Shown here: positions 8,495-23,136 of the stretch, one piece after another
How the letters are laid out: every line of letters begins with the position of its first letter
Position numbering within the stretch: the stretch's first letter is position 1
Source of the DNA: Flavivirga amylovorans
Lineage (GTDB): Bacteria; Bacteroidota; Bacteroidia; Flavobacteriales; Flavobacteriaceae
Assembly: GCF_030540875.1 (NCBI RefSeq)
Contig: NZ_JAUOEM010000001.1
Coordinates: 1-64,000 of the forward strand
Length of the DNA stretch: 64,000 nucleotides
Direction of reading: 5' to 3'
Program-made: the position numbers and the translations under genes
Notes under the pieces: generated by a model
What the model saw: only the letters and a program-made list of their open reading frames with translations
What the model was told of the DNA's origin: nothing
The model's database searches: none

Positions 8495-9637
8495 TTATTC
8501 TAATATTACTTTTTTATCATCTATTTCGAAATTTTTAATAACGCCGAAGTTTTTAATACTTCTAAGAATATCCTCTAAATTTTCGTTTTTTCTTAGGATT
8601 CCTACAAACTCTTCGTTTTCAATTGTTTTATTTTTAAATACTATATCCATATCGTACCATCTGGAAAGTACCTTCATCATTTCTTTAAGTGATTTAGAAT
8701 TAAAACTAAACACACCTTCCTTCCAGGATACTTCATTATATACATCTACCTCTAAAACGGAAGATACACCCGTATTCACATCTAGATTTAGCTGTTGATT
8801 GGGGGTTAAGACCTGATTTCCATTTTCAGTATTCACATCAACTTTGCCTTCTACCAGAGTGGTATAAACATTCGTTTCGTCTTTATAAGCCTTTATATTA
8901 AATTCTGTTCCAAGTACATATACATCTTGTTCATTACAACTTACCCTAAAGCCATCACCATGATTTTTTTCACTTGTGGACACATCAAAATAAGCTTCTC
9001 CATAAACTAATTCAACTTGCCTAACCTCTCCTTCTTTAAAGTGAACCGGGTACTTTAATTGAGATTCTGAATTCAACCATACTTGTGTTCCATCCGAAAG
9101 TTTAACAGAGAATTGCCCTCCTCTTGGTATGGTGAGATGATTATATACCGTCTTTGTGTGCGTTTTTGCCCCAGTTTCATACACAATTTCCTCTCCATTA
9201 CTATTCGCATTATTAGTTTGAAAAGACATCCCACTTTCTAAAACTACTTGAGAACCATCTTCTAATGTTAATGTTGCCTTATCAACACCTGGCGCAACAC
9301 TCGTATTTACAGTAACTGGGGCAATAGGTTGTTGTTCGTTTTTTTCATTAAAAAATAGGGTAAGCCCAAAAATAAGTAGTACCGATGCAGCAGCTATGTA
9401 CTTTAGGTAACCGCCAAATAAATTTTTCACTTTTTTATCCTTATTATTAACGTAAGGCTCTATTTTTGTCCATGATTTCTTTTTAAACGTTTCTTCGCTA
9501 TCAATTTTGAATTTTGGCCAAACATGCTCTTTATCTTGATAAGAATCTAAAAACGCATCCAATAATTCTTGTTCTTCTTTAGAACACTCATTATTAATAT
9601 ATTTTGTGAAAAGCTTTTTCACCTCTTTTTCATTCAT
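8495..9637 (-). CDS. FecR family anti-sigma factor
   Basis: This is an inner-membrane regulator of the partner ECF sigma factor, 380 residues. A short cytoplasmic N-terminal region (1-77) with a zinc-less anti-sigma fold is followed by one membrane helix at about 78-96, a periplasmic FecR domain (about 150-245, with the typical Pro-Arg-Gly-Gly-Gln and Leu-Asn-Ser-Glu-Ser motifs) and a C-terminal DUF4974 domain that receives the signal from the receptor STN domain. It lies between the sigma gene and the TonB receptor on the minus strand, so it is the middle component of a cell-surface signalling system. It is strikingly similar to the FecR at 60755. Confidence 0.93.
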   Translation of the reverse strand: MNEKEVKKLFTKYINNECSKEEQELLDAFLDSYQDKEHVWPKFKIDSEETFKKKSWTKIEPYVNNKDKKVKNLFGGYLKYIAAASVLLIFGLTLFFNEKNEQQPIAPVTVNTSVAPGVDKATLTLEDGSQVVLESGMSFQTNNANSNGEEIVYETGAKTHTKTVYNHLTIPRGGQFSVKLSDGTQVWLNSESQLKYPVHFKEGEVRQVELVYGEAYFDVSTSEKNHGDGFRVSCNEQDVYVLGTEFNIKAYKDETNVYTTLVEGKVDVNTENGNQVLTPNQQLNLDVNTGVSSVLEVDVYNEVSWKEGVFSFNSKSLKEMMKVLSRWYDMDIVFKNKTIENEEFVGILRKNENLEDILRSIKNFGVIKNFEIDDKKVILE

Positions 9638-9924
9638 GTTTTATGCATTAATCCACCTTTTAAGTGTTGGGGTTTTATAATAGGTAACAAAATAAACGTC
9701 TTGGTACATGTCTAAAGTCATTTTTTTTTTAATTTTTTTATTTAGGAAGTAAAATTCTAGTCTATATATAATAGATTTAAGACCAATTTTTCCAATTATA
9801 GTGCGCTTTAGGAGCTGTAATATTATTGTTTGATTTATAGCCACACTCCCGTTCCTACTAAAAACAAAAAAATATTAGAATGAATAAAATTGGTCTAAGA
9901 ATAAAACTCGTTTTAGAGCTGGTT

Positions 9925-11083: not shown

Positions 11084-11851
11084 TTAAAGCCCAATCAAAC
11101 TATTGATTTTCTTTTGGGTGTCCTTCAAAGCATTAATGATATCTTCAAGGTTTTTCTTTTTTTCAAGGTTAGATGAGAACACAGAGACTCCCAATACACT
11201 GCTCACTTCAGAACCTTTTGACCCTATTGGAATTGCAATATCGGTCACGCCTCCCGTCAATTCACTCTCGGCAAATAAATACCCTTTTTCCTTAGCTTCA
11301 TTTATCTCCTTATTTATGACTTCTTTCTGGGCTTTGCTCCATTTCTTATAATGCATATCTCTTGCCAAAATGTTTTTTATTGTTTCCGAAGAAAAACAAG
11401 ATAGCAGCACTTTTCCTGAAATAGTCATTGATAGTGGAAAGTGCCTCCCCTCTTCAATTGATAAGGACACGGGATTAGGGCTTGATGCTTGCGAAATAAC
11501 CAAAAGCTGATTCTTATGCATAATACTCAAGTGACAAGATTCCCTGACCTTTTCTGCTAATAATTGCATCGGGTAATGCGCCGCTCGTTTTAGCTCATAA
11601 AAAGGTGTATGCCTATGGGATAGCTCATACATCTTTAACGACAGTCTATATTTCCCTGCGTTTGAGCCTCTTATAATATATCCTCTCTCTTCCAGGCGCA
11701 TTAACATTCTATATATCTCGCTAGACTTCTTATTAATCCCCTGGGCTATTTCCAACTGTGTTAAAGGAACCCCTTCTAGAGATAAATACTCAAGAATATC
11801 TAACCCCCTATCCAGAGCTGGCGCAGCATAACTTGTTGTTTTTGCAGTCAT
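11084..11851 (-). CDS. IclR family transcriptional regulator
   Basis: This is a 255-residue DNA-binding regulator with an N-terminal winged helix-turn-helix (about 17-70, with Leu-Thr-Gln-Leu-Glu-Ile-Ala recognition region) and a C-terminal ligand-binding GAF-like IclR domain (about 90-250). IclR proteins sense small carboxylates or sugar acids and usually repress an adjacent catabolic operon. Here the gene is divergent from the RhaT-to-RraA operon, with a 148-base shared promoter region that holds a perfect palindrome. It is therefore the likely local regulator, responding to the operon substrate or an intermediate. Confidence 0.93.
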   Translation of the reverse strand: MTAKTTSYAAPALDRGLDILEYLSLEGVPLTQLEIAQGINKKSSEIYRMLMRLEERGYIIRGSNAGKYRLSLKMYELSHRHTPFYELKRAAHYPMQLLAEKVRESCHLSIMHKNQLLVISQASSPNPVSLSIEEGRHFPLSMTISGKVLLSCFSSETIKNILARDMHYKKWSKAQKEVINKEINEAKEKGYLFAESELTGGVTDIAIPIGSKGSEVSSVLGVSVFSSNLEKKKNLEDIINALKDTQKKINSLIGL

Positions 11852-11910: not shown

Positions 11911-11960
11911 TATAAAAATAATTTTTATATTTGTATTTTCATATTTGAAATCTATTTTTG
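11911..11960 (+). promoter_or_regulatory. operator palindrome and Bacteroidota-type promoter for the catabolic operon
   Basis: TATAAAAATAATTTTTATA (11911-11929) is a perfect 9+1+9 palindrome. It abuts a TTTG -33 element (11930-11933), which is followed after 19 bases by TATTTTTG (11953-11960), matching the TAnnTTTG -7 consensus. The start codon is at 12000. The palindrome is well placed for IclR binding to both divergent promoters. In AT-rich DNA a palindrome can also arise by chance. Confidence 0.55.
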
Positions 11961-11999
11961 TATATAGAAATAAATTTCTTTAAAAAGACCAATAATATT

Positions 12000-13070
12000 A
12001 TGTCAAATCCAGTTTTAGGCACCATAATACATGCTATTGGAGGCGTAGCCGCGTCAACCTGTTACGTTCCCTTTCAAAAAGTAAAAAAATGGTCTTGGGA
12101 TTCTTATTGGATTGTACAAGCGTCTTTCGCTTGGTTTATCTTTCCGTTTTTAATAGGATTTTTAACCGTTCCAAACTTAATGAGTGTCTTTACTGATGCT
12201 TCTTCTACAGTATTATTTAATGCCACTTTACTAGGAGCTATTTATGGTTTTGGAGGGATGTGTTTTGGCTTTGCCATTCGCCATATAGGTTACTCATTAA
12301 CCTATACCATTTCCATTGGTATATCAGCCATTTTAGGAACTATCGTCCCTTTAATTATGCACGGAACTTTTATGGAGAAGTTTAACGGCCCTGGGGGCTA
12401 TACTATTTTCTTCGGCATGTTTTTAGCACTTATAGGTATTATTATTTGTGGTATTGCAGGATATAGAAAGGAAAAAGATTTAAAAAGCAACAAGGCCAAT
12501 AGTGGAGAACCTTTAACGTTTAACATGAAAAAAGGGTTAACACTTACCATTATAGCAGGGGTGTTATCTGCTGTTTTTGGAATTTCTTTAGAAGTTGGAG
12601 CCCCTGTAGCTGAAATTGCAGGAAATTACGGTGCCGGAAATTTTGAAGGTAATGCAAATTTAATCCTATCTACAGGCGGCGCCTTTATCACCAATTTTGT
12701 TTGGTTTACCGTAGTTGGGCTTAAAAACAATACATTAAAGGAGCTCGTGGATATAAAAGGAGTAGGCAAACAAAATTACTATCTAAATTTAGGCATGTCT
12801 GTTTTAAGTGGGGCTTTATGGTACGGACAGTTTTTCTTCTATGGCATTGGTCATGTACAAATGGGAGCATATAAATTTGCCAGTTGGGTATTGCACATGT
12901 CCATGCTTATATTCTTCAGTTATATAGTAGGTATTGTATTAAAAGAATGGAAACAGGTAACCAAACGCACCTATTTCACACTGATTATTGCCTTGGTGGT
13001 TTTGGTAGTATCATTCATCATCATTGCCTACGGAAGTAAACTGGGCAGTGATGTAACTAATGGCCATTAA
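12000..13070 (+). CDS. RhaT-like L-rhamnose/proton symporter family permease
   Basis: This is a ten-helix inner-membrane permease of 356 residues in the RhaT branch of the DMT superfamily. The start is placed at the ATG at 12000, where the family motif Pro-Val-Leu-Gly-Thr-Ile-Ile-His-Ala-Ile-Gly-Gly begins, rather than 14 codons upstream inside the promoter leader. Gly-Ala-Ile-Tyr-Gly-Phe-Gly-Gly-Met and Gly-Ile-Ser-Ala-Ile-Leu-Gly-Thr fit the family. In Bacteroidota, RhaT homologues occur in several sugar and sugar-acid operons, so rhamnose is not implied. No rhamnose isomerase or kinase is present. It is the first gene of the operon and the only obvious inner-membrane transporter in the island. 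Confidence 0.88.
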   Translation: MSNPVLGTIIHAIGGVAASTCYVPFQKVKKWSWDSYWIVQASFAWFIFPFLIGFLTVPNLMSVFTDASSTVLFNATLLGAIYGFGGMCFGFAIRHIGYSLTYTISIGISAILGTIVPLIMHGTFMEKFNGPGGYTIFFGMFLALIGIIICGIAGYRKEKDLKSNKANSGEPLTFNMKKGLTLTIIAGVLSAVFGISLEVGAPVAEIAGNYGAGNFEGNANLILSTGGAFITNFVWFTVVGLKNNTLKELVDIKGVGKQNYYLNLGMSVLSGALWYGQFFFYGIGHVQMGAYKFASWVLHMSMLIFFSYIVGIVLKEWKQVTKRTYFTLIIALVVLVVSFIIIAYGSKLGSDVTNGH

Positions 13071-13143
13071 AAATGAAACCAATATACCTTAAAAATAAAT
13101 AGGTCAGATTTTGAATAAAATTCGATGAAAACAAAAAATAGAA

Positions 13144-13210
13144 GACAGAAGACGGAGGACTGAACTTCCTGTTAGTATCTACTTAGGTCAGTAGTCATCC
13201 GCCATCTGTC
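13144..13210. repeat. imperfect inverted repeat between permease and SBP gene
   Basis: GACAGAAGACGGAGGACTGA (13144-13163) pairs imperfectly with 13188-13210, which ends CCGCCATCTGTC. Purine-rich GACGGAxGACxGA strings are a common flavobacterial intergenic repeat type. It could form an RNA hairpin that separates permease from downstream expression within the 225-base gap. Confidence 0.45.
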
Positions 13211-13295
13211 CAAAAATAATTTCATCTATCGAAACTAAAACAGGTTCAATAAATTACAAGTTTTTAACCTATAACCAGATAATAAAAAACATAAA

Positions 13296-14447
13296 ATGAG
13301 TACTGAACGTATACAACTAAAAGGAATTACATGGAATCATAGTAGGGGATTTACATCTGTAGTAGCAACAGCACAACGTTTCTGTGAACTAAATCCTAAC
13401 GTAGATATTGTGTGGGAGAAACGTTCACTTCAAGCCTTTGCAGACGAGCCCATAGACCAATTAGCAAAACGATACGATTTGTTAATAATTGACCATCCCT
13501 GGGCAGGATTTGCAGGTAAAAACAATGTGATTTTGCCCTTAGATGAGTACCTCCCTAAAGCATTCATGAAAGACCTTGAAGAAAATACAGTTGGTCGTTC
13601 CCATGAGAGTTATTCGTCAAACGGACATCAATGGGCTTTGGCCGTAGATGCCGCTACACCGGTAGCTGCCAGTCGCCCCGATATTTTTGAAAAAAAAGGT
13701 TTAGATTTACCTAAAACTTATGATGATTTATTAGCGCTTGCAAAACAAGGATTGGTTATCATGCCTGGGATTCCACAAGATACCCTGATGAATTTTTACA
13801 TGATGTGCTGCAATTTGGGCGAAGAAGTTTGTTCCTCTCCAGATTATGTGGTTAGTGAAGCCATTGGAATAAAAGCATTACAAATGTTAAGGGAACTGGC
13901 CATAGAAATGGACCCACAGATTTTTGATTGGAACCCCATTCAAATCTTCGAGGCCATGACTCAAACCGACAAATATGCTTATTGTCCGTGGGCTTATGGC
14001 TATACCAATTATAGCAGAAAAGGTTATGCCCGCAAACAGTTGCACTTCCATGATATGATAGAGATTAATGGTGTTGGTGCTATTTCCACTCTAGGGGGTA
14101 CTGGATTAGCCGTTTCTGCCCAAACAAATGACATTGAAACCGTTATGAAATATGTAGAGTATACAGGGTCGGAAGCCTGTCAAAAAACTGTATTTTTTGA
14201 CAACGGCGGACAACCTGGTCATAGAAAAGCCTGGATCGACGCACATACTAACGAAGTGTCGGCAAATTTCTTTAAAAATACTTTACCAGCATTAGATAGA
14301 GCATTCTTAAGACCAAGATATAACGGGCATATTTATTTTCAAGATAGGGCGGGTGCACCAATATCAGATTATATGATGAACGGAGGTGATGAAAAAGCCC
14401 TACTCTCTCAACTAAATAAATTGTATAAAAAATCATTGGAAATCTAA
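13296..14447 (+). CDS. solute-binding-protein homologue without signal peptide (SBP-1)
   Basis: This 383-residue protein has the two-lobe fold signature of family 1 extracellular solute-binding proteins. The N-terminus Gly-Ile-Thr-Trp-Asn-His-Ser-Arg-Gly, then Glu-Lys-Arg-Ser-Leu-Gln and Asp-Leu-Leu-Ile-Ile-Asp-His-Pro-Trp, is typical of a subgroup that I recall near CaiB-type CoA-transferases in other phyla. Unusually for an ABC binding protein, it has no signal peptide or lipobox; the mature-like sequence begins right at the start codon. No ABC permease or ATPase is encoded in the window. It ends 4 bases before the first CoA-transferase gene. It may therefore work in the cytosol, binding the substrate for the CoA-transferases; that function is inferred. 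Confidence 0.75.
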   Translation: MSTERIQLKGITWNHSRGFTSVVATAQRFCELNPNVDIVWEKRSLQAFADEPIDQLAKRYDLLIIDHPWAGFAGKNNVILPLDEYLPKAFMKDLEENTVGRSHESYSSNGHQWALAVDAATPVAASRPDIFEKKGLDLPKTYDDLLALAKQGLVIMPGIPQDTLMNFYMMCCNLGEEVCSSPDYVVSEAIGIKALQMLRELAIEMDPQIFDWNPIQIFEAMTQTDKYAYCPWAYGYTNYSRKGYARKQLHFHDMIEINGVGAISTLGGTGLAVSAQTNDIETVMKYVEYTGSEACQKTVFFDNGGQPGHRKAWIDAHTNEVSANFFKNTLPALDRAFLRPRYNGHIYFQDRAGAPISDYMMNGGDEKALLSQLNKLYKKSLEI

Positions 14448-14451
14448 ATAG

Positions 14452-15594
14452 ATGAAACTATTAGAAGGTATAACAATTCTGGAATTCTCCCAATTCATGG
14501 CAGGGCCTTCGGCTGGTTTAAAGTTAGCCGACCTTGGAGCACGTGTTATAAAAATTGAACGCCCTGTTCAAGGTGAAGGCTGTAGACAAATTGCTTTAAA
14601 GAATTTATTCTTAGACGGTAGCAGCCTAGTATTCCATACTGTTAATCGAGATAAAGAGTCTTATGCTGCAAACCTTAAAGACCCAGAAGATTTAGAACGC
14701 ATAAAAAAATTGATTGCGCGAGCAGATGTGATGACCCACAATTTTCGTCCAGGAGTGATGGAAAAAATCGGGTTGGATTATAATACGGTTCAACAAATAA
14801 ACGCAAAATTGATTTATGCTACAGTAACCGGATATGGTACTACTGGGCCATGGGCTAAAAAACCCGGGCAAGATTTGTTGATTCAATGCATGTCTGGCCT
14901 TGCAAATTTAACTGGAAATAAAGATGACAACCCGATACCCGTAGGAGTTGCCGTCTCCGATTTAATAACCGGAACCCATTTAGTACAAGGCATTATAGCA
15001 AGTTTAATTAGAAAAGAAAAAACCGGAAAAGGCGCCCTTGTTGAAGTAAGCCTGTTAGAATCTACTTTAGATTTTCAATTTGAAGTTATTACCACATATT
15101 TAAATGATGGCAACAAACAGCCTGTTAGAGCCAAACAAGGGGCTGCACACGCTTACCTTGGTACGCCATATGGCATTTACAAAACCAAAGACGGGTATTT
15201 GTCTTTGGCCATGGGAGATTTGTCAAAGCTTGGCCAGGTATTGCAATGTGAGCCACTAGCTGAATACTCAAATCCAGAATCATGGTTTACAGAACGAGAT
15301 GCTATTATGGATATTCTGCGTTCGTTCTTAATAAAAGAAACCACATCACATTGGTTGGAAATATTGGAGCAGAAAGGTATTTGGTGCTCTGATGTTTATG
15401 ATTATAAGACCTTATTAAATCATAACGCATATAAAGTACTCCAATGGGACCAGAAATTATCTTTACTTTCAGGAGAAGAGGTACATACAACCCGTTGTCC
15501 GATTCGCATAAATGACAAACGTATTTTTGCCAGCAAACCCGCTCCAAGAGTAGGACAACATACAGAAGACATCGTTAAAGAATTTAATCTATAA
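14452..15594 (+). CDS. class III CoA-transferase (CaiB/BaiF family), copy 1
   Basis: This family III CoA-transferase of 380 residues moves CoA between carboxylic acids through aspartyl-CoA chemistry. The family landmarks are present: Leu-Ala-Asp-Leu-Gly-Ala-Arg-Val-Ile-Lys-Ile-Glu near residue 25, His-Asn-Phe-Arg-Pro-Gly at about 96-101, and Lys-Pro-Gly-Gln-Asp with the likely catalytic Asp141. Its length is typical. It is plainly paralogous to the next gene, with roughly half of positions identical by eye, suggesting a heteromer or two successive substrates. It lies between an SBP homologue 4 bases upstream and copy 2 six bases downstream. Confidence 0.92.
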   Translation: MKLLEGITILEFSQFMAGPSAGLKLADLGARVIKIERPVQGEGCRQIALKNLFLDGSSLVFHTVNRDKESYAANLKDPEDLERIKKLIARADVMTHNFRPGVMEKIGLDYNTVQQINAKLIYATVTGYGTTGPWAKKPGQDLLIQCMSGLANLTGNKDDNPIPVGVAVSDLITGTHLVQGIIASLIRKEKTGKGALVEVSLLESTLDFQFEVITTYLNDGNKQPVRAKQGAAHAYLGTPYGIYKTKDGYLSLAMGDLSKLGQVLQCEPLAEYSNPESWFTERDAIMDILRSFLIKETTSHWLEILEQKGIWCSDVYDYKTLLNHNAYKVLQWDQKLSLLSGEEVHTTRCPIRINDKRIFASKPAPRVGQHTEDIVKEFNL

Positions 15595-15600
15595 TAGAAA

Positions 15601-16746
15601 ATGAAACCATTACAAGACATATTAATTATAGATTTAAGCCAGTTTTTATCAGCGCCATCGGCAACCTTACGTCTGGCAGACCTTGGTGCCAGAGTTATTA
15701 AAGTTGAACGCCCTGAAATAGGAGATATTTGTAGGCAACTATACGTTTCCAACACTATTTTAAATGGAGAATCATCAGTATTTAGAGCTATCAACAGAAA
15801 CAAAGAAAGTTTTCAGGCAGATTTAAAATACGATGTTGACAAGCAGCGTGTTCTAAAGCTCATAAAAAAAGCAGATGTTTTAGTTCATAATTTCCGCCCA
15901 GGAGTAATAGATAGACTTGGCTTTGATTATGACACTATAAAAAAAATAAATCCGAAAATAGTTTACGGCGAAATTTCGGGATATGGTTCTGAAGGTCCTT
16001 GGACTAAAAAACCAGGGCAAGATTTATTATTACAGTCTTTATCCGGCCTAACCTGGTTAAGTGGGAATGAAGGCAATGGTCCAACACCGGTAGGCTTAGC
16101 TATAGCAGACATTTTATCTGGAGCACATTTGGTTCAAGGTATTTTAGCCGGTTTATTACAACAAACAAAAACAGGAGTGGGCTGTAAAGTTTCGGTGAGT
16201 ATGCTAGAATCTATCTTAGATTTTCAATTTGAATTCATTACCACTTTTTATCACGATGGCGGACAACCAACAATTAGGCCTAAACAACACAGTGCCCATG
16301 CCTACTTAGGTGCTCCTTATGGGGTTTATCCAACTGTTAATGGTTATTTGGCTCTTGCCATGGGTTCCATACCTTTTTTAGGAGAATTATTAGGCAATGA
16401 AAAACTTAAAGAGTTTAAAGAAATTGAAAGCTGGTATAATCAAAGGGACGAAATCAAAGCTCAATTGGCAGGTACCCTTGCACAGAAAACTACCGAGTAT
16501 TGGCTATCTATTTTAGAGCCAGCAGACATTTGGTGCGCCAATGTCATGGATTGGGATGAGTTATTTCAACATGAAGGCTTTAAAGTATTAGATATGATTC
16601 AGAATGTAAGAATGGGAGACGGTTTTGAATACCAGACCACACGCTGCCCTATTAGAATTGATGGTGAAATTTTAAAATCACCTTTAGGCTCCCCTGCATT
16701 GGGCGAGCATACACAGAATATCATAAACGAATTAATTTCTGCATAA
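15601..16746 (+). CDS. class III CoA-transferase (CaiB/BaiF family), copy 2
   Basis: This is a second CaiB/BaiF CoA-transferase, 381 residues, collinear with copy 1 throughout. The same key positions are kept: Leu-Ala-Asp-Leu-Gly-Ala-Arg-Val-Ile-Lys-Val-Glu, His-Asn-Phe-Arg-Pro-Gly and Lys-Pro-Gly-Gln-Asp with Asp141. Both copies therefore look catalytic. The end of the gene overlaps the start of the next SBP homologue by one base (TAATG), indicating translational coupling. A tandem duplication followed by divergence is the simplest origin. Candidate acids include hydroxy- or keto-acids made by the dehydrogenases downstream; the true substrate is unknown. Confidence 0.92.
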   Translation: MKPLQDILIIDLSQFLSAPSATLRLADLGARVIKVERPEIGDICRQLYVSNTILNGESSVFRAINRNKESFQADLKYDVDKQRVLKLIKKADVLVHNFRPGVIDRLGFDYDTIKKINPKIVYGEISGYGSEGPWTKKPGQDLLLQSLSGLTWLSGNEGNGPTPVGLAIADILSGAHLVQGILAGLLQQTKTGVGCKVSVSMLESILDFQFEFITTFYHDGGQPTIRPKQHSAHAYLGAPYGVYPTVNGYLALAMGSIPFLGELLGNEKLKEFKEIESWYNQRDEIKAQLAGTLAQKTTEYWLSILEPADIWCANVMDWDELFQHEGFKVLDMIQNVRMGDGFEYQTTRCPIRIDGEILKSPLGSPALGEHTQNIINELISA

Positions 16747-17978
16747 TGACAACAAAATTTAGTATTGCAGTACGAAAATTTGACGCCTTTGAATCGGCAA
16801 TCGATAAAATATGGAAAAAATATTGCCAAGAAACAGGTTGTGACTTGGAGTTAGAAGCTGTTTCTTTGGATTTACACCCTTTACATGATACTATTTTAAA
16901 AGACGAAGGTTTAAAAAATGGCGATTGGGATGTATCACTCATAAACACCGATTGGATTACCGAGGCTTACACATCTGGCTCTATAGAAGATTTAACCCCA
17001 TTAATTGAAAAAAATCCACCAGAAGATTTCCCATACGGATGGTCTGACTCCTTATTACAAAAACAAGTCTTTGAAGGAAAAACAGTAGCATTACCTTTTC
17101 ATAATGGTCCCGAATGTTTAATTTACAGAAAAGATTTATTTGAATCTGTTGAAGAAGGTGTTAATTTCTATGAAAAACACGGTAAACCACTAGAGATACC
17201 GGAAACTTGGGATGACCTTATGGAAGTGGCAGAGTTTTTTAACAGGCCAGAAGAAGGTTTATACGGAACTACGTTTGCAGCTTATCCTGACGGACACAAT
17301 ACGGTTTTTGATTTCTGCTTGCAACTTTGGACACGAGGTGGAGAGCTTTTTGACGACAATAAGAACATTAAGTTAAACTCACAAGCTGCTATTGAGGGAA
17401 TGACTTTTTATAGAAAAGCCTTAAAGAATGATAAAGCTATGCATCCAGAATCTCGAGACTTCGACTCTGTAAAGTCAGGGATGGCATTTGCAAATGGAAA
17501 TTTGGCCATGATGGTTAATTGGTTCGGATTTGCCTCTATGTGTGAGTTTTTTGAAGGGTCTAAAGTAAAAGGCAAAGTAGATATTGCCAATGTACCTGCT
17601 GGACCAAATGGAGAAGGCAGCTCTTTAAACGCCTATTGGATGTACGTGATTGGTAGTGGCAGTAAACACAAAGATTTGGCATATGACTTCATCAAATTTG
17701 CTATCAATGCCGAAAATGACAAACTACTTACTTTAGAGGGTGCCGGAGGTTGTAGAAAATCTACGTGGCACGATACCGATGTAAACAAAGAAGTTCCCTA
17801 TTATTACAAGTTGGAAACACTCCACCAAAACACCAAGTCGTTGCCCAGAAAATCAAATTGGTCTGAAGTTGCCGATGTTATAGACCAATTGGTTTTAGAC
17901 GTTATAAACACCTCGGAACCTATTGAAAACATCTTGAACCGAGCTCAAGAAAAAATCAATCGTATAGAAAATATTTAA
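16746..17978 (+). CDS. solute-binding-protein homologue without signal peptide (SBP-2)
   Basis: This 410-residue protein resembles family 1 ABC solute-binding proteins: Trp-Asp-Val-Ser-Leu-Ile-Asn-Thr-Asp-Trp, an Ile-Tyr-Arg-Lys-Asp-Leu-Phe segment, Pro-Glu-Thr-Trp-Asp-Asp-Leu and a Gly-Asn-Leu-Ala-Met-Met-Val-Asn-Trp stretch are all family features. Like SBP-1 it begins directly with mature-type sequence (Thr-Thr-Lys-Phe-Ser-Ile-Ala-Val-Arg), has no export signal, and no transporter genes accompany it. It is translationally coupled to CoA-transferase copy 2. It is only distantly related to SBP-1, so the arrangement is SBP, CoAT, CoAT, SBP. A cytosolic substrate-carrier or complex subunit role is possible. 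Confidence 0.75.
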   Translation: MTTKFSIAVRKFDAFESAIDKIWKKYCQETGCDLELEAVSLDLHPLHDTILKDEGLKNGDWDVSLINTDWITEAYTSGSIEDLTPLIEKNPPEDFPYGWSDSLLQKQVFEGKTVALPFHNGPECLIYRKDLFESVEEGVNFYEKHGKPLEIPETWDDLMEVAEFFNRPEEGLYGTTFAAYPDGHNTVFDFCLQLWTRGGELFDDNKNIKLNSQAAIEGMTFYRKALKNDKAMHPESRDFDSVKSGMAFANGNLAMMVNWFGFASMCEFFEGSKVKGKVDIANVPAGPNGEGSSLNAYWMYVIGSGSKHKDLAYDFIKFAINAENDKLLTLEGAGGCRKSTWHDTDVNKEVPYYYKLETLHQNTKSLPRKSNWSEVADVIDQLVLDVINTSEPIENILNRAQEKINRIENI

Positions 17979-17980
17979 TT

Positions 17981-19051
17981 ATGGAACTCATTTATAAGCC
18001 AGAATTACCAAAAGAAAAAAGGCCCATTTATATTATTGGTGCAGGTGGTATTGTTCGTGACGCACATTTACCCGCCTATAAAAAAGTAGGTTTTAATGTA
18101 ACCGGAATCACTAATAGGACCAAACAACGTGCATTGGATTTAGCAGAAACATTCAACATTCCTAATGTTTATGATTCTGTTGAAGATATGGTAGCAGATG
18201 CTCCAGAAAATGCGGTATTCGACTTAACATTAATGCCTAGCCAATTTGTAGCAGTCCTCGAATTATTACCCGATGAAGCCGCAGTGTTGATTCAAAAGCC
18301 TATGGGGGATAATTATGAGCAAACCTTAGAAATTTTGAGCGTTTGCCGCAGAAAAAAGTTAAAAGCAGCTATTAACTGTCAAATGCGTTTTGCACCTTAC
18401 ATAATGGCCGCTAAATATTTAATAGAAAACGGGTTTATTGGAGAACTATATGACTTTGAAGTTAGGTTGTCCACGTATACACCATGGGAATACTTCCCTA
18501 ATGTGATGCATCACCCGCGTTTGGAAATCCAACAACACAGTATTCACTATATAGATTTAATTCGTTCGTTCTTAGGAAACCCTAAAAAAGTTTATTCAAA
18601 AACGCTTAAAAATCCTGCCAAAACCATGTCGTCTACCAGAACTACTACTATAATGGATTATAGTAATGCCATGCGAGCTATTATCAATACCAATCACGAC
18701 CACAATTTTGGTGAAAAGAATCAGGAGAGTTTTGTAAAATGGGAAGGTACCAAAGGCGCCATTAAAGCCAGAATTGGCCTCTTACTAGATTACCCAAACG
18801 GAAAACCAGACCTTTTTCAATACTGCATTTTAAAAGAAGGCGAAGCACCTCAATGGGTCGAAGTAAACCTGGAAGGTTCTTGGTTCCCGGATGCTTTTAT
18901 TGGCACCATGGCATCTTTGATGCGATATGTAGAGGGTTCATCCAACATGCTTCATACCAATGTTGAAGATGTGGTGCATTCCATGGCCATAGTAGAAGCC
19001 GCTTACAAATCCAACAATGATGGTGGCGTTTCACCCTATTACAATATATAA
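17981..19051 (+). CDS. Gfo/Idh/MocA family oxidoreductase
   Basis: This NAD(P)-dependent dehydrogenase has 356 residues. The N-terminal Rossmann domain shows Gly-Ala-Gly-Gly-Ile-Val at residues 20-25, and the motif usually written Glu-Lys-Pro appears as Gln-Lys-Pro-Met-Gly near 105. The C-terminal alpha/beta domain carries Gln-Gln-His-Ser-Ile-His-Tyr-Ile-Asp, whose His and Asp are the usual catalytic/substrate contacts. Such enzymes oxidise sugars, inositols or their acids. It starts two bases after SBP-2, so it is in the same operon. The Gln in place of Glu is a mild deviation seen in some subfamilies. Confidence 0.9.
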   Translation: MELIYKPELPKEKRPIYIIGAGGIVRDAHLPAYKKVGFNVTGITNRTKQRALDLAETFNIPNVYDSVEDMVADAPENAVFDLTLMPSQFVAVLELLPDEAAVLIQKPMGDNYEQTLEILSVCRRKKLKAAINCQMRFAPYIMAAKYLIENGFIGELYDFEVRLSTYTPWEYFPNVMHHPRLEIQQHSIHYIDLIRSFLGNPKKVYSKTLKNPAKTMSSTRTTTIMDYSNAMRAIINTNHDHNFGEKNQESFVKWEGTKGAIKARIGLLLDYPNGKPDLFQYCILKEGEAPQWVEVNLEGSWFPDAFIGTMASLMRYVEGSSNMLHTNVEDVVHSMAIVEAAYKSNNDGGVSPYYNI

Positions 19052-19063
19052 AACTGAACCCAA

Positions 19064-20080
19064 ATGATAGCAACGCAATACAAAGGGAATAAGACATTTT
19101 CGGTTATAGAAAAAGAAATCGAAGCTCCGGCAGAAGGTGACGTAAGAATCAAAGTAGCCTACTCAGGAGTTTGTGGCACAGATGTTCATATCTATCATGG
19201 TATGATGGATAAAAGGGTGGCCATGCCCCAAACCATAGGTCATGAAATGTCAGGCGTTATCGATGCCGTAGGGAGTGGTGTGAAAGGGTTTAAAAAGGGA
19301 GATAAAGTTGTAGTACGCCCCTTAGACGACAGGAAAGCCAAACCTTCAGACAAAGGATTCAACCACATTTGTGAAGAATTGAATTTTATAGGGATTGATA
19401 GTCCCGGTTCCATGCAGCAATATTGGAATGTACCAGCATTCACTTTACATAAATTAAAAGAGAACACAGATTTAAAGTTGGCGGCTTTAATCGAACCCTT
19501 ATCGGTAGCCACCCATGATGTTAGATTGAGCGGGTTGCAAGCTGGCGAAACCGCTATAGTGCTTGGCGGTGGCCCTATCGGACTTTTAGTGGCTATGGTA
19601 GCTAAAGAAGTAGGAGCTCAGGTAATTATTTCCGAGGTGAACCCAACAAGGATTGAAAAAGCCAAATCCATGGGGCTAGAAGCAGTAAGTCCAATCGATG
19701 TGGACCTGGTAGAATATGTGCATTCTAAAACCGAGGGAAGACTGGCCGATGTCGTTTTTGAGGTAGCAGGCGTACAACCAACATTAAATATTATGACCGA
19801 AGTGGCCGGTATCAGAGGCCGTATCGTCATGGTGGCCATTCATGGGCAGCCAAAACCTGTGAACTTATTCAAGTTCTTTTGGAAGGAATTAAAGTTAATA
19901 GGCGCACGAGTTTATGAAAAAGAAGATTATGAAAAATCCATTGCGCTGATTACTGCCAATGAATCGCCCTTTGAGGATATGATAACTGATGTACAACCAT
20001 TATCAAACATTCAACAAGTATTCGAAAACATTGATGAAAATCCTGACGGCATGAAAGTCTTAATGGACTGCCAACTTTAA
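19064..20080 (+). CDS. zinc-type alcohol dehydrogenase (MDR), structural zinc site missing
   Basis: This medium-chain dehydrogenase/reductase has 338 residues. The catalytic zinc ligands are recognisable: Cys37 in Val-Cys-Gly-Thr-Asp and His60-Glu61 in Gly-His-Glu-Met-Ser-Gly. An NAD-binding Gly-Gly-Gly-Pro-Ile-Gly lies near residue 170. The loop that normally holds four Cys for the structural zinc (around 86-105) reads Pro-Leu-Asp-Asp-Arg-Lys-Ala-Lys and keeps only Cys103, so that zinc is probably absent. The family includes sorbitol, threonine and galactitol dehydrogenases. It probably oxidises a secondary hydroxyl of the pathway substrate. It lies 12 bases after the Gfo gene. Confidence 0.9.
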   Translation: MIATQYKGNKTFSVIEKEIEAPAEGDVRIKVAYSGVCGTDVHIYHGMMDKRVAMPQTIGHEMSGVIDAVGSGVKGFKKGDKVVVRPLDDRKAKPSDKGFNHICEELNFIGIDSPGSMQQYWNVPAFTLHKLKENTDLKLAALIEPLSVATHDVRLSGLQAGETAIVLGGGPIGLLVAMVAKEVGAQVIISEVNPTRIEKAKSMGLEAVSPIDVDLVEYVHSKTEGRLADVVFEVAGVQPTLNIMTEVAGIRGRIVMVAIHGQPKPVNLFKFFWKELKLIGARVYEKEDYEKSIALITANESPFEDMITDVQPLSNIQQVFENIDENPDGMKVLMDCQL

Positions 20081-20150: not shown

Positions 20151-20921
20151 ATGAGTATCCTAAATAAATTCAGTTTAGAAGGAAAAACAGCTTTGGTAAC
20201 CGGTTGTAAACGAGGCATTGGTAAAGCCATGGCCATTGGTTTGGCAGAAGCAGGAGCCAATATTATTGGCGTATCGGCTTCATTGGAACCGGAAGGAAGT
20301 GAAGTTTCTAAAGCAGTAGAAGCAAAAGGGAAAAGCTTTAGCGCATACCAATGTGATTTTTCAGATAGAAAATCATTATATGCTTTTATCGAGGCGGTTA
20401 AAGCAGACCACCCACAAATCGATATTTTGGTAAATAATGCGGGAACCATCTTAAGAACTCCTGCCGCTGAGCACCCGGATGATATGTGGGACAAGGTGAT
20501 TGAAGTCAATCAAAATGCACAATTTATTCTGACTAGGGAAATTGGTAAAGAAATGGTAGCAAGAGAATACGGTAAAATTATTTTCACAGCTTCATTATTG
20601 ACTTTCCAAGGCGGTATTACGGTGCCAGGATATGCAGCAAGTAAAGGAGCTGTAGGCCAGTTAACCATGGCATTTGCAAATGAATGGGCAGGAAAAGGTG
20701 TTAATGTTAACGCTATTGCGCCAGGATATATTTCAACAGATAACACAGAAGCTTTGCGCAACGACCCTGTAAGAGCCGAATCCATTTTATCAAGAATACC
20801 AGCAGGGCGCTGGGGAGAGCCTCAAGATTTTGCTGGACCGACCGTATTTCTAGCTTCAGATTCGGCAGCTTATATGAACGGGGCTATTGTTCTTGTTGAC
20901 GGGGGCTGGATGGGCAGATAA
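20151..20921 (+). CDS. SDR oxidoreductase, KduD-like
   Basis: This is a classical short-chain dehydrogenase of 256 residues. The cofactor motif Thr17-Gly-Cys-Lys-Arg-Gly-Ile-Gly24, the Asn-Asn-Ala-Gly at 95-98 and the catalytic Ser148, Tyr161 and Lys165 (Tyr-Ala-Ala-Ser-Lys) are all intact. The overall sequence, including the Trp-Gly-Glu-Pro-Gln-Asp-Phe segment and the Asp-Gly-Gly-Trp end, resembles 2-deoxy-D-gluconate 3-dehydrogenase/KduD, which oxidises 3-deoxy-sugar acids. No KDG kinase or aldolase accompanies it, so KduD activity itself is not assured. It is in the same operon as the Gfo and MDR dehydrogenases, giving three oxidoreductases in a row. Confidence 0.9.
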   Translation: MSILNKFSLEGKTALVTGCKRGIGKAMAIGLAEAGANIIGVSASLEPEGSEVSKAVEAKGKSFSAYQCDFSDRKSLYAFIEAVKADHPQIDILVNNAGTILRTPAAEHPDDMWDKVIEVNQNAQFILTREIGKEMVAREYGKIIFTASLLTFQGGITVPGYAASKGAVGQLTMAFANEWAGKGVNVNAIAPGYISTDNTEALRNDPVRAESILSRIPAGRWGEPQDFAGPTVFLASDSAAYMNGAIVLVDGGWMGR

Positions 20922-20942: not shown

Positions 20943-21395
20943 ATGCATATAAAATCACAGTTTTACGAAGATTATGAATTAGGTCATAAAAGAGAAACTT
21001 TAGGGCGTACTATTACTGAAACGGACTTTGTGGTTCACGCAGGACATACCGGTGATTTTTTTCCACATCATATGGATTCAGAATGGTGCAAAACCCAACC
21101 CTTTAAACAACGTATCGCTCATGGCACCCTAACTTTTTCAGTTGGTATTGGTATGACCGCTACCGAAATAAATCCAGAAGCATTCTCAAAAGGCTATGAC
21201 CGCCTGCGCTTTATAAAACCAGTACATATTGGAGATACCATTAAGGTGGTGGTAACCATAAGCGAAAAAAAGGATTCCAAACATGCACATTTAGGGCATG
21301 TAACAGAACACGTAGAAATCTTCAATCAACATGGTGAACTAGTGTTGGTTTGCGACCATATTTTACTAGCAAAAAGAAAACACCACAACAAGTAG
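20943..21395 (+). CDS. MaoC-like (R)-specific hydratase/dehydratase
   Basis: This is a single hot-dog-fold protein of 150 residues. The hydratase signature is recognisable in Thr-Gly-Asp38-Phe-Phe-Pro-His-His43, with the Asp and His expected to act on a beta-hydroxyacyl-CoA or enoyl-CoA. The Arg-Ile-Ala-His-Gly-Thr-Leu motif at about 57-63 is also family-typical. In this operon its substrate is probably the CoA thioester formed by the CaiB-type transferases, linking the two activities. It starts 21 bases after the SDR gene. Confidence 0.9.
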
Positions 21396-21451: not shown

Positions 21452-22108
21452 ATGAATAAAAGTATTGAATTATCAAACAGATTGGAAAAATGCTACTCAG
21501 GAGCCGTATACGATGTACTTAGAGCCATGGGCTACCCTAACCAAACATTACCCAATAATATTCGCCCTTTGGACATTGATAAAAAATTAGCAGGAACTGT
21601 TTTCACCGTAAGCGGACGTTATGACGATACTTTAGACCCTCATGAAACGCTACTGCAATGGACCGCTTTGCTCTCCAAAGCACCTAAAGGAAGTGTCATA
21701 ATTTGTCAACCTAACGACGATAAGCTTTCGCATATGGGAGAATTATCTTCTGAAACACTCCAATTAAAGGGTGTTAGAGGGTATATTGTAGACGGCGGAT
21801 GTAGAGATTCTGATTTTATAAATAAAATCGGCTTTAAAGTATTTTGTAAATATTACACGCCTGTAGATATTGTTGGCAGGTGGGTTGCAGATAGCTTTGA
21901 GGAACCTATTAAAATTGGAGACGTTAATATCAATACAGGGGATTATGTTATGGCCGACAGAGATGGCATTGTTGTAATACCTCAAAATATATCGGAAGAA
22001 GTCATCGAAAAAGTAGAAGAAGTTTTAAGAACCGAAAGCTTAGTTAGAAAGGCAATTATGAATGGGGTCGACCCTCAAGAAGCTTATCTAAAATATGGGA
22101 AGTTTTAA
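21452..22108 (+). CDS. RraA-like family protein, probable class II aldolase
   Basis: This 218-residue protein belongs to the RraA/HMG aldolase superfamily. The metal-binding Asp114-Gly-Gly-Cys-Arg118-Asp119 motif and the preceding Gly-Glu-Leu segment near 96-98 are conserved, as is Asp-Arg-Asp-Gly-Ile-Val-Val-Ile-Pro. These residues are required for aldolase/decarboxylase activity on 4-hydroxy-2-oxo acids, yielding pyruvate plus a second carbonyl compound. True RraA RNase E inhibitors are not expected beside catabolic genes, so the enzymatic reading is preferred. It is the last intact gene of the operon and would deliver central metabolites. Confidence 0.85.
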   Translation: MNKSIELSNRLEKCYSGAVYDVLRAMGYPNQTLPNNIRPLDIDKKLAGTVFTVSGRYDDTLDPHETLLQWTALLSKAPKGSVIICQPNDDKLSHMGELSSETLQLKGVRGYIVDGGCRDSDFINKIGFKVFCKYYTPVDIVGRWVADSFEEPIKIGDVNINTGDYVMADRDGIVVIPQNISEEVIEKVEEVLRTESLVRKAIMNGVDPQEAYLKYGKF

Positions 22109-22140: not shown

Positions 22141-23136
22141 CAACTTATAATTCGTCTAATTACAACATTATTTTTAACCCTTTTATTAAACGCACAAACA
22201 AAGAGAGACCTACTAAAAGAGATTAGAGCATTCAAAGCTAATTTGGTTAGCAATGCCTCTTTTGATAAAGATTTCGATGAAGTCTGGGACGCCATGTATG
22301 TCATAGCCACAGATCCTGATTGCGATCGATTAGGTGTTGCTATTCGTAACTACAAAAATGAACTACAGTTATTGAACGGTAACCAGACTATGCTTTTGAT
22401 GACTGATTTTTTATTAAAACAATGGGAATCTCAAGGTAAGATTACTGGTAAGGAGTTCATTGCATCAACTATAGTTTCCACCCCAATGCTAGGCAAAATG
22501 GCATTACACTATGGAGTTGAAAGTAAAACGGTACTAACAGGTTTCAAGTGGATTGCCAAATTGATTAAAGACAATCCTGAATTAAGTTTTATTGGTGGTG
22601 GAGAGGAAAGCTTTGGCTATATGGTAGGTGATTTTGTTCGTGATAAGGATGCAGTAACATCTACCTTATTGGCAGTAGAAATTGTGGCACAAGCCAAACA
22701 AAGAGATATTTTAGCCTATCAGCAGTTAATAAAACTGTATGTAAAACATGGTTTATATAAGGAACATCTTGTTTCATTGACAAAGAAAGGCATGGACGGT
22801 GCAGAGGAGATTAGCCAAATGATGAAGAATGCCAGAAAATTTCCTTTAACGGATATTAACGGGATCAAGGTAGTAAGGGTAGATGATTACAAGCTCTCTG
22901 ATTCTAAAAACCTAGTTTCAGGATCAGAAAGTCCAATAGATTTACCAAAATCTAACGTATTAGTTTATCATACTGAAGATGGAAGTCAGATAGCCCTAAG
23001 GCCAAGTGGGACGGAACCGAAGATTAAATTTTATATGAGCGTAAATTGTCCATTACCATCTGCATCTAAATTTGAAGAAATAAGTGAGCAGCTGGACAAG
23101 AAAATTATTAATATCGTTGAAGATTTGAAATTGTAA
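22141..23136 (+). pseudogene. truncated phosphohexomutase fused to a foreign N-terminal fragment
   Basis: From about 22295 the frame encodes the C-terminal half of a phosphoglucomutase/phosphomannomutase: the metal loop Thr-Asp-Pro-Asp-Cys-Asp-Arg, the Gly-Gly-Gly-Glu-Glu-Ser sugar-specificity loop, and the phosphate-binding Arg-Pro-Ser-Gly-Thr-Glu-Pro. The N-terminal half with the phosphoserine loop is gone. In its place the same frame reads a hydrophobic signal-like segment (Leu-Phe-Leu-Thr-Leu-Leu-Leu-Asn-Ala-Gln) and an acidic stretch of an unrelated exported protein. No ATG begins this fusion; the first start-like codon is TTG at 22243. A productive enzyme is very unlikely. It marks an illegitimate recombination joint at the island's right side. 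Confidence 0.8.

Follow-up and report, generated by a model that had tools for sequence, protein, structure and literature searches.

Each part of the system described here is already known singly: solute-binding-protein (SBP) folds outside transport, class III coenzyme A (CoA)-transferases, and adjacent genes for paralogous CoA-transferases (CoATs). Class III CoATs (the CaiB/BaiF family, including formyl-CoA, oxalate and succinate-glutarate types) act on carboxylic acids, and BbsEF is a two-subunit member in which one subunit lacks the catalytic aspartate. The periplasmic-binding-protein fold occurs in cytosolic or catalytic proteins such as MqnA/MqnD, Thi5/NMT1, thiaminase I and cyclohexadienyl dehydratase, and we know of no cytosolic or catalytic protein of SBP fold that is paired with a CoAT. 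TctC/Bug binding-protein genes lie near CaiB/BaiF genes in Burkholderiales. Uses of the SBP fold other than transport, including SBP-derived enzymes, are described in PMC7683729. Here we analysed the first 64,000 nucleotides of contig NZ_JAUOEM010000001.1 of Flavivirga amylovorans (assembly GCF_030540875.1), a stretch called the window throughout, in which two apparently signal-less SBPs, SBP1 and SBP2, are encoded on either side of two class III CoATs, CoAT1 and CoAT2. With slightly less than even confidence, we favour the reading that SBP1 is a sugar-binding protein of ABC (ATP-binding cassette) importers that has lost its export signal and is now a cytosolic part of sugar or deoxysugar catabolism via CoA thioesters.

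The four genes have the order SBP1-CoAT1-CoAT2-SBP2, all on the forward strand at 13296-17978 of the window, with spacing of 4, 6 and -1 bases; an earlier note on this DNA had pointed out this order and spacing, and its coordinates are exact. The genes are as follows (Pfam E values in brackets).

13296..14447, + strand: SBP1, complete MalE-type binding protein without signal peptide (PF01547, 9.7e-12)
14452..15594, + strand: CoAT1, class III CoA-transferase with Asp141 (PF02515, 2.7e-94, full model)
15601..16746, + strand: CoAT2, class III CoA-transferase with Asp141, paralogue of CoAT1 (PF02515, 3.1e-95, full model; tree)
16746..17978, + strand: SBP2, second, separately derived MalE-type protein without signal peptide (PF01547, 6.1e-32)

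Compared with one close relative (locus L042, whose SBP1 is 95% identical), the ratio of nonsynonymous to synonymous substitution rates (dN/dS) was 0.07-0.10 for all four genes; the ratios against L043 and L044 were saturated or undefined for several genes and were not used. Like the ABC-importer sugar SBPs (SBP_bac_1; 1eu8, 6dtq, 7ofy), SBP1 and SBP2 have the bilobal fold over the whole protein, whereas here there is no signal peptide, no sugar-type permease was found in the genome and the genes are linked to a CoAT or an oxidoreductase; in SBP1, moreover, the tryptophan following the GG motif of 1eu8 and SmoF is replaced by T, V or A in a profile alignment. An apparent non-transport use of the SBP fold is shared with MqnA/MqnD, Thi5/NMT1, thiaminase I and cyclohexadienyl dehydratase, but those appear to belong to different SBP families, and TctC/Bug proteins are another family again, and periplasmic. 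In Pfam at E ≤ 0.001, SBP1 and SBP2 matched SBP_bac_1/8 only (PF01547/PF13416), with no match to TctC/Bug or to a known enzyme family and no DNA-binding domain, and no NCBIfam model matched SBP1 at the same threshold. The pairing of an SBP with a CoAT, a design of which the earlier note knew no described case, is likewise undescribed in the open-access literature searched, which leaves most subscription journals outside and includes PMC9007349, PMC5613140 and PMC5698469. Judged from genomic evidence alone, what appears to be new is the system, namely, a conserved cytosolic SBP of a sugar-importer family tied to CoATs, and a second SBP tied to an oxidoreductase.

The structural models predict a MalE-type fold over the whole length of both proteins; in alignment, residue 3 of SBP1 and residue 2 of SBP2 are the first to match mature TMBP, at its residue 2, the closest folds being those of exported sugar SBPs (TMBP 1eu8, Thermotoga maritima MalE3 6dtq and SmoF 7ofy). 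Both annotated starts are the first ATG, GTG or TTG after the preceding in-frame stop, and therefore no longer N-terminus with those codons exists. Neither an export signal peptide nor a lipobox was found in SBP1 or SBP2 by a hydropathy heuristic set against five exported control SBPs. Copies were counted if they spanned 80% or more of the query, with the start nearest the aligned N-terminus; even with the longest possible frame instead, which avoids bias from that choice of start, only 2 of 122 SBP1 copies and none of 71 SBP2 copies were as hydrophobic as the controls. The mature-type start without signal peptide that the earlier note had read from the sequence thus holds, and the sequence tests available support a cytosolic location of both proteins. 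A continued role of the SBPs in transport, after export by some route that escaped recognition, is very improbable. Such a route would suit their exported nearest folds, and in L157 and L160 SBP1 could begin in frame 42 codons further upstream, which would add a strongly hydrophobic stretch, but the window allows no extension of this kind, high hydropathy is confined to the two copies in 122, the fold begins at residue 2 or 3, and SBP2 is found fused to an oxidoreductase (see below). Transport genes argue in the same direction. SBP1 and SBP2 are the sole PF01547 genes of the genome (n = 2; a PF13416 search found SBP2 and missed SBP1), and its three BPD_transp_1 permeases have oligopeptide/nickel and nitrate permeases as best models, all under the NCBIfam cut-offs, with no sugar permease model matched at E ≤ 1e-20. 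The absence of a cognate permease noted earlier is thereby extended to the genome, and ABC transport through a distant permease is unsupported. Where an ABC importer adjoins SBP1 in other loci, it encodes a separate exported SBP of its own.

Recurrence of the neighbourhood was followed in several collections, in which loci and genomes are numbered with L and G, respectively. A scan of genome contigs found at least 578 stretches with SBP1 relatives, and in all of the nearest 80, a set in which the type of the window is over-represented, SBP1 stands directly before CoAT genes, as separate CoAT1 and CoAT2 in 76 loci and as a single open reading frame (ORF) in 4. The gap from SBP1 to CoAT1 is at most 30 bases in 68 of the 76, and the two genes overlap in 42 of them. 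Of 151 plasmid records with a match, 17 were examined, from three phyla (Alphaproteobacteria, a Betaproteobacterium that is marked unverified, one Streptomyces and two Bacteroidota); a CoAT lies directly beside SBP1 in 16 of these, with overlaps of one or four bases in at least nine; the exception is a Microvirga locus with a UxuA-like gene in the CoAT position. Within the family, SBP1 relatives occurred in 30 and PF02515 proteins in 44 of 397 genomes, and, if the two draws are taken as the same genomes, a CoAT was present in 28 of the 30 SBP1-positive genomes versus 16 of the 367 others (p = 2.3e-29). In a sample of 198 genomes of the phylum, 11 had a strong SBP1 match (E < 1e-150, the next best being 3.6e-11), five of them shared with the family sample; all 11 encode two CoATs, versus any CoAT in 34 of the other 187. 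The neighbourhood therefore recurs across phyla, with and without ABC transporters nearby, as a search suggested by the earlier note was meant to establish, and its recurrence in the genome collection, the family genomes and the plasmids rules out a strain-specific oddity. That the genes are passengers, inherited as a block without functional linkage, is a reading we disfavour and consider the least probable of all: the clusters of relatives do have many genes in common, but the association recurs in three phyla, in different surroundings and with two CoAT subfamilies, the reading frames overlap, and dN/dS is about 0.1.

CoAT1 and CoAT2 are the only PF02515 genes of the genome. As the earlier note had stated, Asp141 is intact in both; an aspartate at this position is the catalytic residue of class III CoATs, and all 76 unfused homologues of CoAT1 and all 76 of CoAT2 keep it, a count that excludes four fused CoATs. 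With the formyl-CoA, oxalate and succinate-glutarate types, the two proteins share the full-length PF02515 domain as well as this aspartate, but they score far under all listed NCBIfam cut-offs (best, 234 versus 750 bits) and are linked to SBP genes. Their adjacent paralogous genes resemble those of BbsEF, from which they differ in that both paralogues carry the aspartate. In four Hymenobacter species (L098, L102, L108 and L118), CoAT1 followed by CoAT2 forms one ORF of 792-818 residues. As a separate observation, the SBP1-adjacent CoAT of Sinorhizobium meliloti 1021 pSymB (L031, 6839-9131) is split over two ORFs, and that of S. medicae (L041) is a single ORF.

SBP2 is present in 56 of the 80 loci, with a gap from CoAT2 of at most 30 bases in 54 of the 56, and is followed by a Gfo/Idh oxidoreductase gene in 55, the remaining locus stopping at a contig end. 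In L058 (genome G159, 12355-14634), SBP2 and Gfo/Idh form a single in-frame ORF of 759 residues without stops. In the 397 family genomes, SBP2 orthologues number 14 copies, spread over 13 genomes; all of them lie in this cluster, and all of these genomes also have SBP1. The other 24 of the 80 loci have SBP1 and both CoATs without SBP2, and the proteobacterial single-CoAT loci also lack it. The proposal that each SBP pairs with one transferase consequently did not survive: a symmetric SBP1-CoAT1 and SBP2-CoAT2 arrangement is ruled out by the loci lacking SBP2 and those with a single CoAT, and the CoAT tree agrees, with weak support. SBP1 looks like the core of the cluster, and the CoATs look duplicated.

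The remaining genes of the neighbourhood in the window are listed below.

11084..11851, - strand: divergent IclR-family regulator (PF01614, 1.3e-26; PF09339, 2.5e-9)
11958..13070, + strand: RhaT-type sugar/proton symporter (PF06379, 3.3e-58; under the NCBIfam RhaT cut-offs)
17981..19051, + strand: Gfo/Idh/MocA oxidoreductase, whose homologue is fused to SBP2 in L058 (PF01408, 4.5e-12)
19064..20080, + strand: zinc-type alcohol/sugar dehydrogenase (PF08240, PF00107)
20151..20921, + strand: KduD-like short-chain dehydrogenase/reductase (SDR) (PF00106, 2.4e-54; TIGR01832, 320 bits against a cut-off of 339)
20943..21395, + strand: MaoC-like hydratase (PF01575, 2.7e-22)
21452..22108, + strand: RraA/HMG-aldolase-like protein, with a homologue in the same position in L042 and less sure as a cluster member (PF03737, 6.3e-29)

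The phosphoglucomutase/phosphomannomutase encoded by an ORF 3' of the RraA-like gene (22243-23136, + strand) is reduced to domains III and IV; as the N-terminal half is missing, the ORF looks like a truncated gene. The regulator raises the possibility, which we regard as improbable, that the two SBPs sense or buffer a ligand in the cytosol, for example to report the sugar to the neighbouring IclR protein. The SBP fold changes shape on binding, and an IclR gene is present in 37 of the 80 genome-collection loci, but none was seen in the other 43, the IclR protein of the window carries its own effector domain (PF01614), Pfam finds no DNA-binding domain in either SBP, and L058 has SBP2 joined to an oxidoreductase in one ORF.

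Four layouts of the neighbourhood were distinguished. Layout A, that of the window, is SBP1-CoAT1-CoAT2-SBP2-Gfo-MaoC. Layout B, seen in Zobellia, agar-degrading Gammaproteobacteria and others, combines SBP1-CoAT1-CoAT2 with crotonase and aldehyde dehydrogenase genes. A crotonase accompanies 20 of the 24 loci without SBP2, as a homologue within 3 kb downstream of CoAT2 in 17 and upstream of SBP1 in three (L087, L096 and L130); of the other four, L089 and L135 have only the aldehyde dehydrogenase and L085 and L107 have neither. On the same strand, the layout B crotonase was found in none of the 56 SBP2 loci. Layout C (Proteobacteria and Streptomyces) has SBP1 with a single CoAT; of the nine annotated proteobacterial records in which a CoAT is present, all but L041 also show a MaoC or crotonase gene in the stretch. 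Typical of its subgroup C1 are genes for IclR, a sugar ABC importer with its own SBP, an L-rhamnose mutarotase-like protein and Gfo/Idh, joined in some loci by a mandelate-racemase-type dehydratase or a fuconolactonase-like amidohydrolase. In layout D, from Flavobacteriaceae, lactonase, SDR and UxuA-like genes are found near SBP1, and a crotonase and a CoAT are usually present as well. SBP1 keeps its CoAT whichever importer adjoins, be it RhaT, a FucP-type major facilitator superfamily (MFS) protein or an ABC importer with its own SBP, and the theme common to the layouts is sugar oxidation together with CoA-ester chemistry, independent of the import system. Judging by these neighbours, sugar acids would be broken down by way of CoA thioesters, and the alpha-L-rhamnosidase, alpha-L-fucosidase and FucP-type genes beside the L113 and L032 clusters hint at a deoxysugar substrate. 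A second flavobacterial SBP1 clade, 34-39% identical (L059, L060, L064, L070 and L071), has lactonase, SDR, UxuA-like, MFS and RraA-like genes as neighbours in varied sets and possibly belongs to another sugar-acid pathway.

In a tree of 46 SBPs, 35 SBP1s formed one clade (support, 100/99) and SBP2 a separate one (99/96); on the assumption of exported ancestors, export was therefore lost at least twice. CoAT1 and CoAT2 are also separate from each other (87/96, and in 100% of bootstrap trees). The single CoAT of subgroup C1 falls outside both, although the branch that unites CoAT1 with CoAT2 is weak (83/73); this suggests that the CoAT was duplicated within the lineage of the window. The loci of layout D, of Streptomyces and of Proteobacteria other than C1 have CoATs of a distant subfamily. 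At one deep branch the two trees conflict, SBP1 joining C1 to C2 (98/98) and CoAT joining C1 to layouts A and B (100/99), and partners may therefore have been exchanged and the linkage re-formed.

Over 21 divergent SBP1s, 34 positions are invariant, including W13, H15, R17, D66, D118, Y236, Y239, Q306 and R339, and among fairly close relatives 104 positions are invariant in 39 SBP1s and 92 in 31 SBP2s. An anionic sugar ligand would fit the residue pattern of SBP1, and, as class III CoATs act on carboxylic acids, a sugar acid would be the natural common substrate of SBP1 and CoAT. Under the favoured catabolic reading, a symporter or ABC importer would carry the sugar inward, where Gfo/Idh, alcohol dehydrogenase or SDR enzymes would oxidise it and a lactonase, where present, would open the lactone. 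SBP1 would then bind the resulting sugar acid and present it to the class III CoAT, which would form the acyl-CoA, and this thioester would be dehydrated or cleaved by the MaoC or crotonase enzyme. In the lineage of the window, the duplicated CoATs may act as a CoAT1-CoAT2 heteromer, and SBP2 may have been added as partner of the Gfo/Idh step. Of the two roles that the earlier note proposed for the binding proteins, substrate delivery is thus a possible one, whereas nothing found bears on their acting as CoA-acceptor carriers. A more specific version, possible although clearly short of an even chance, is that former transport SBPs serve as intracellular carriers, SBP1 bringing a sugar acid to CoAT and SBP2 serving Gfo/Idh, in a hitherto undescribed CoA-thioester pathway for deoxy- or anhydro-sugars that extends over three phyla.

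Several observations weigh against the catabolic reading. SBP1 occurs without a CoAT nearby in six loci (L062, L064, L070, L071, L072 and L038), and in G216, one of the genomes concerned, which has an intact SBP1, a search of the genome found no PF02515 gene; SBP1 thus seems not always to need a CoAT, and strict dependence is ruled out. Gene linkage is a sign of a shared pathway, not of contact, and no SBP1-CoAT fusion was found among the loci examined. The branches in the tree conflict are long, and the program flags such joins as possibly false, and the 80-locus set is, as said, enriched in the type of the window. Among the 34 loci L042-L075, 16 have a cluster that contains SBP1 and both CoATs, a CoAT lies within the locus in nine members of the 34-39% clade, and seven have none (L062, L064, L070, L071, L072, L073 and L075, the last also without an SBP1 ORF). 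About 19 kb separate the SBP1 of L070 from a CoAT in the same genome (G011), and the only full CoATs of G248 and G162 are located elsewhere in the genome. A second copy in G006 (L057, 6432-9982) has SBP1, CoAT2, SBP2 and Gfo without CoAT1.

The CoAT-less loci, above all genome G216, lean towards the main rival, which we consider somewhat unlikely, namely, that SBP1, and possibly SBP2 as well, has gained catalysis of its own on a sugar acid, lactone or thioester and works beside CoAT rather than as its subunit. Where no CoAT is nearby, SBP1 persists in loci with genes for a lactonase, a crotonase or a UxuA-like protein (L062, L071, L064, L070 and L038), and its conservation is strong, H15, R17, D66 and D118 being invariant even in the 21 divergent proteins, but a tight ligand site can be equally conserved, no catalytic residue set is known, and Pfam matched SBP_bac_1/8 rather than an enzyme family. 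SBP-derived enzymes do exist, as described in PMC7683729, and if SBP1 is one, it would be more fairly placed as a variant of the SBP-fold enzymes.

If the catabolic reading is true, annotations as "extracellular solute-binding protein" in the records examined would be wrong in both cell location and function; relatives are encoded in at least 578 stretches. Degraders of algal and plant polysaccharides, and rhizobia, would then have a CoA-dependent, beta-oxidation-like route for sugar acids beside the known non-phosphorylating pathways. The locus would also show clearly how a transport binding protein can become a metabolic subunit or enzyme, and it is directly testable with four soluble proteins.

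Traces of decay were also seen. Of the two SBP1-positive family genomes without a CoAT, G216 has an intact SBP1 and G270 (L075) a short remnant, and a direct search confirmed that PF02515 has no match in either. A similar SBP1 remnant occurs in G240 (L074), where the CoAT is shortened, so that L074 retains short pieces of both genes; from these remnants, SBP1 and CoAT genes may decay together. In L073, an ORF at 8516-9763 joins an SBP1-like C-terminal half to an unrelated N-terminus with a signal-like stretch, has no Pfam match and is probably a remnant.

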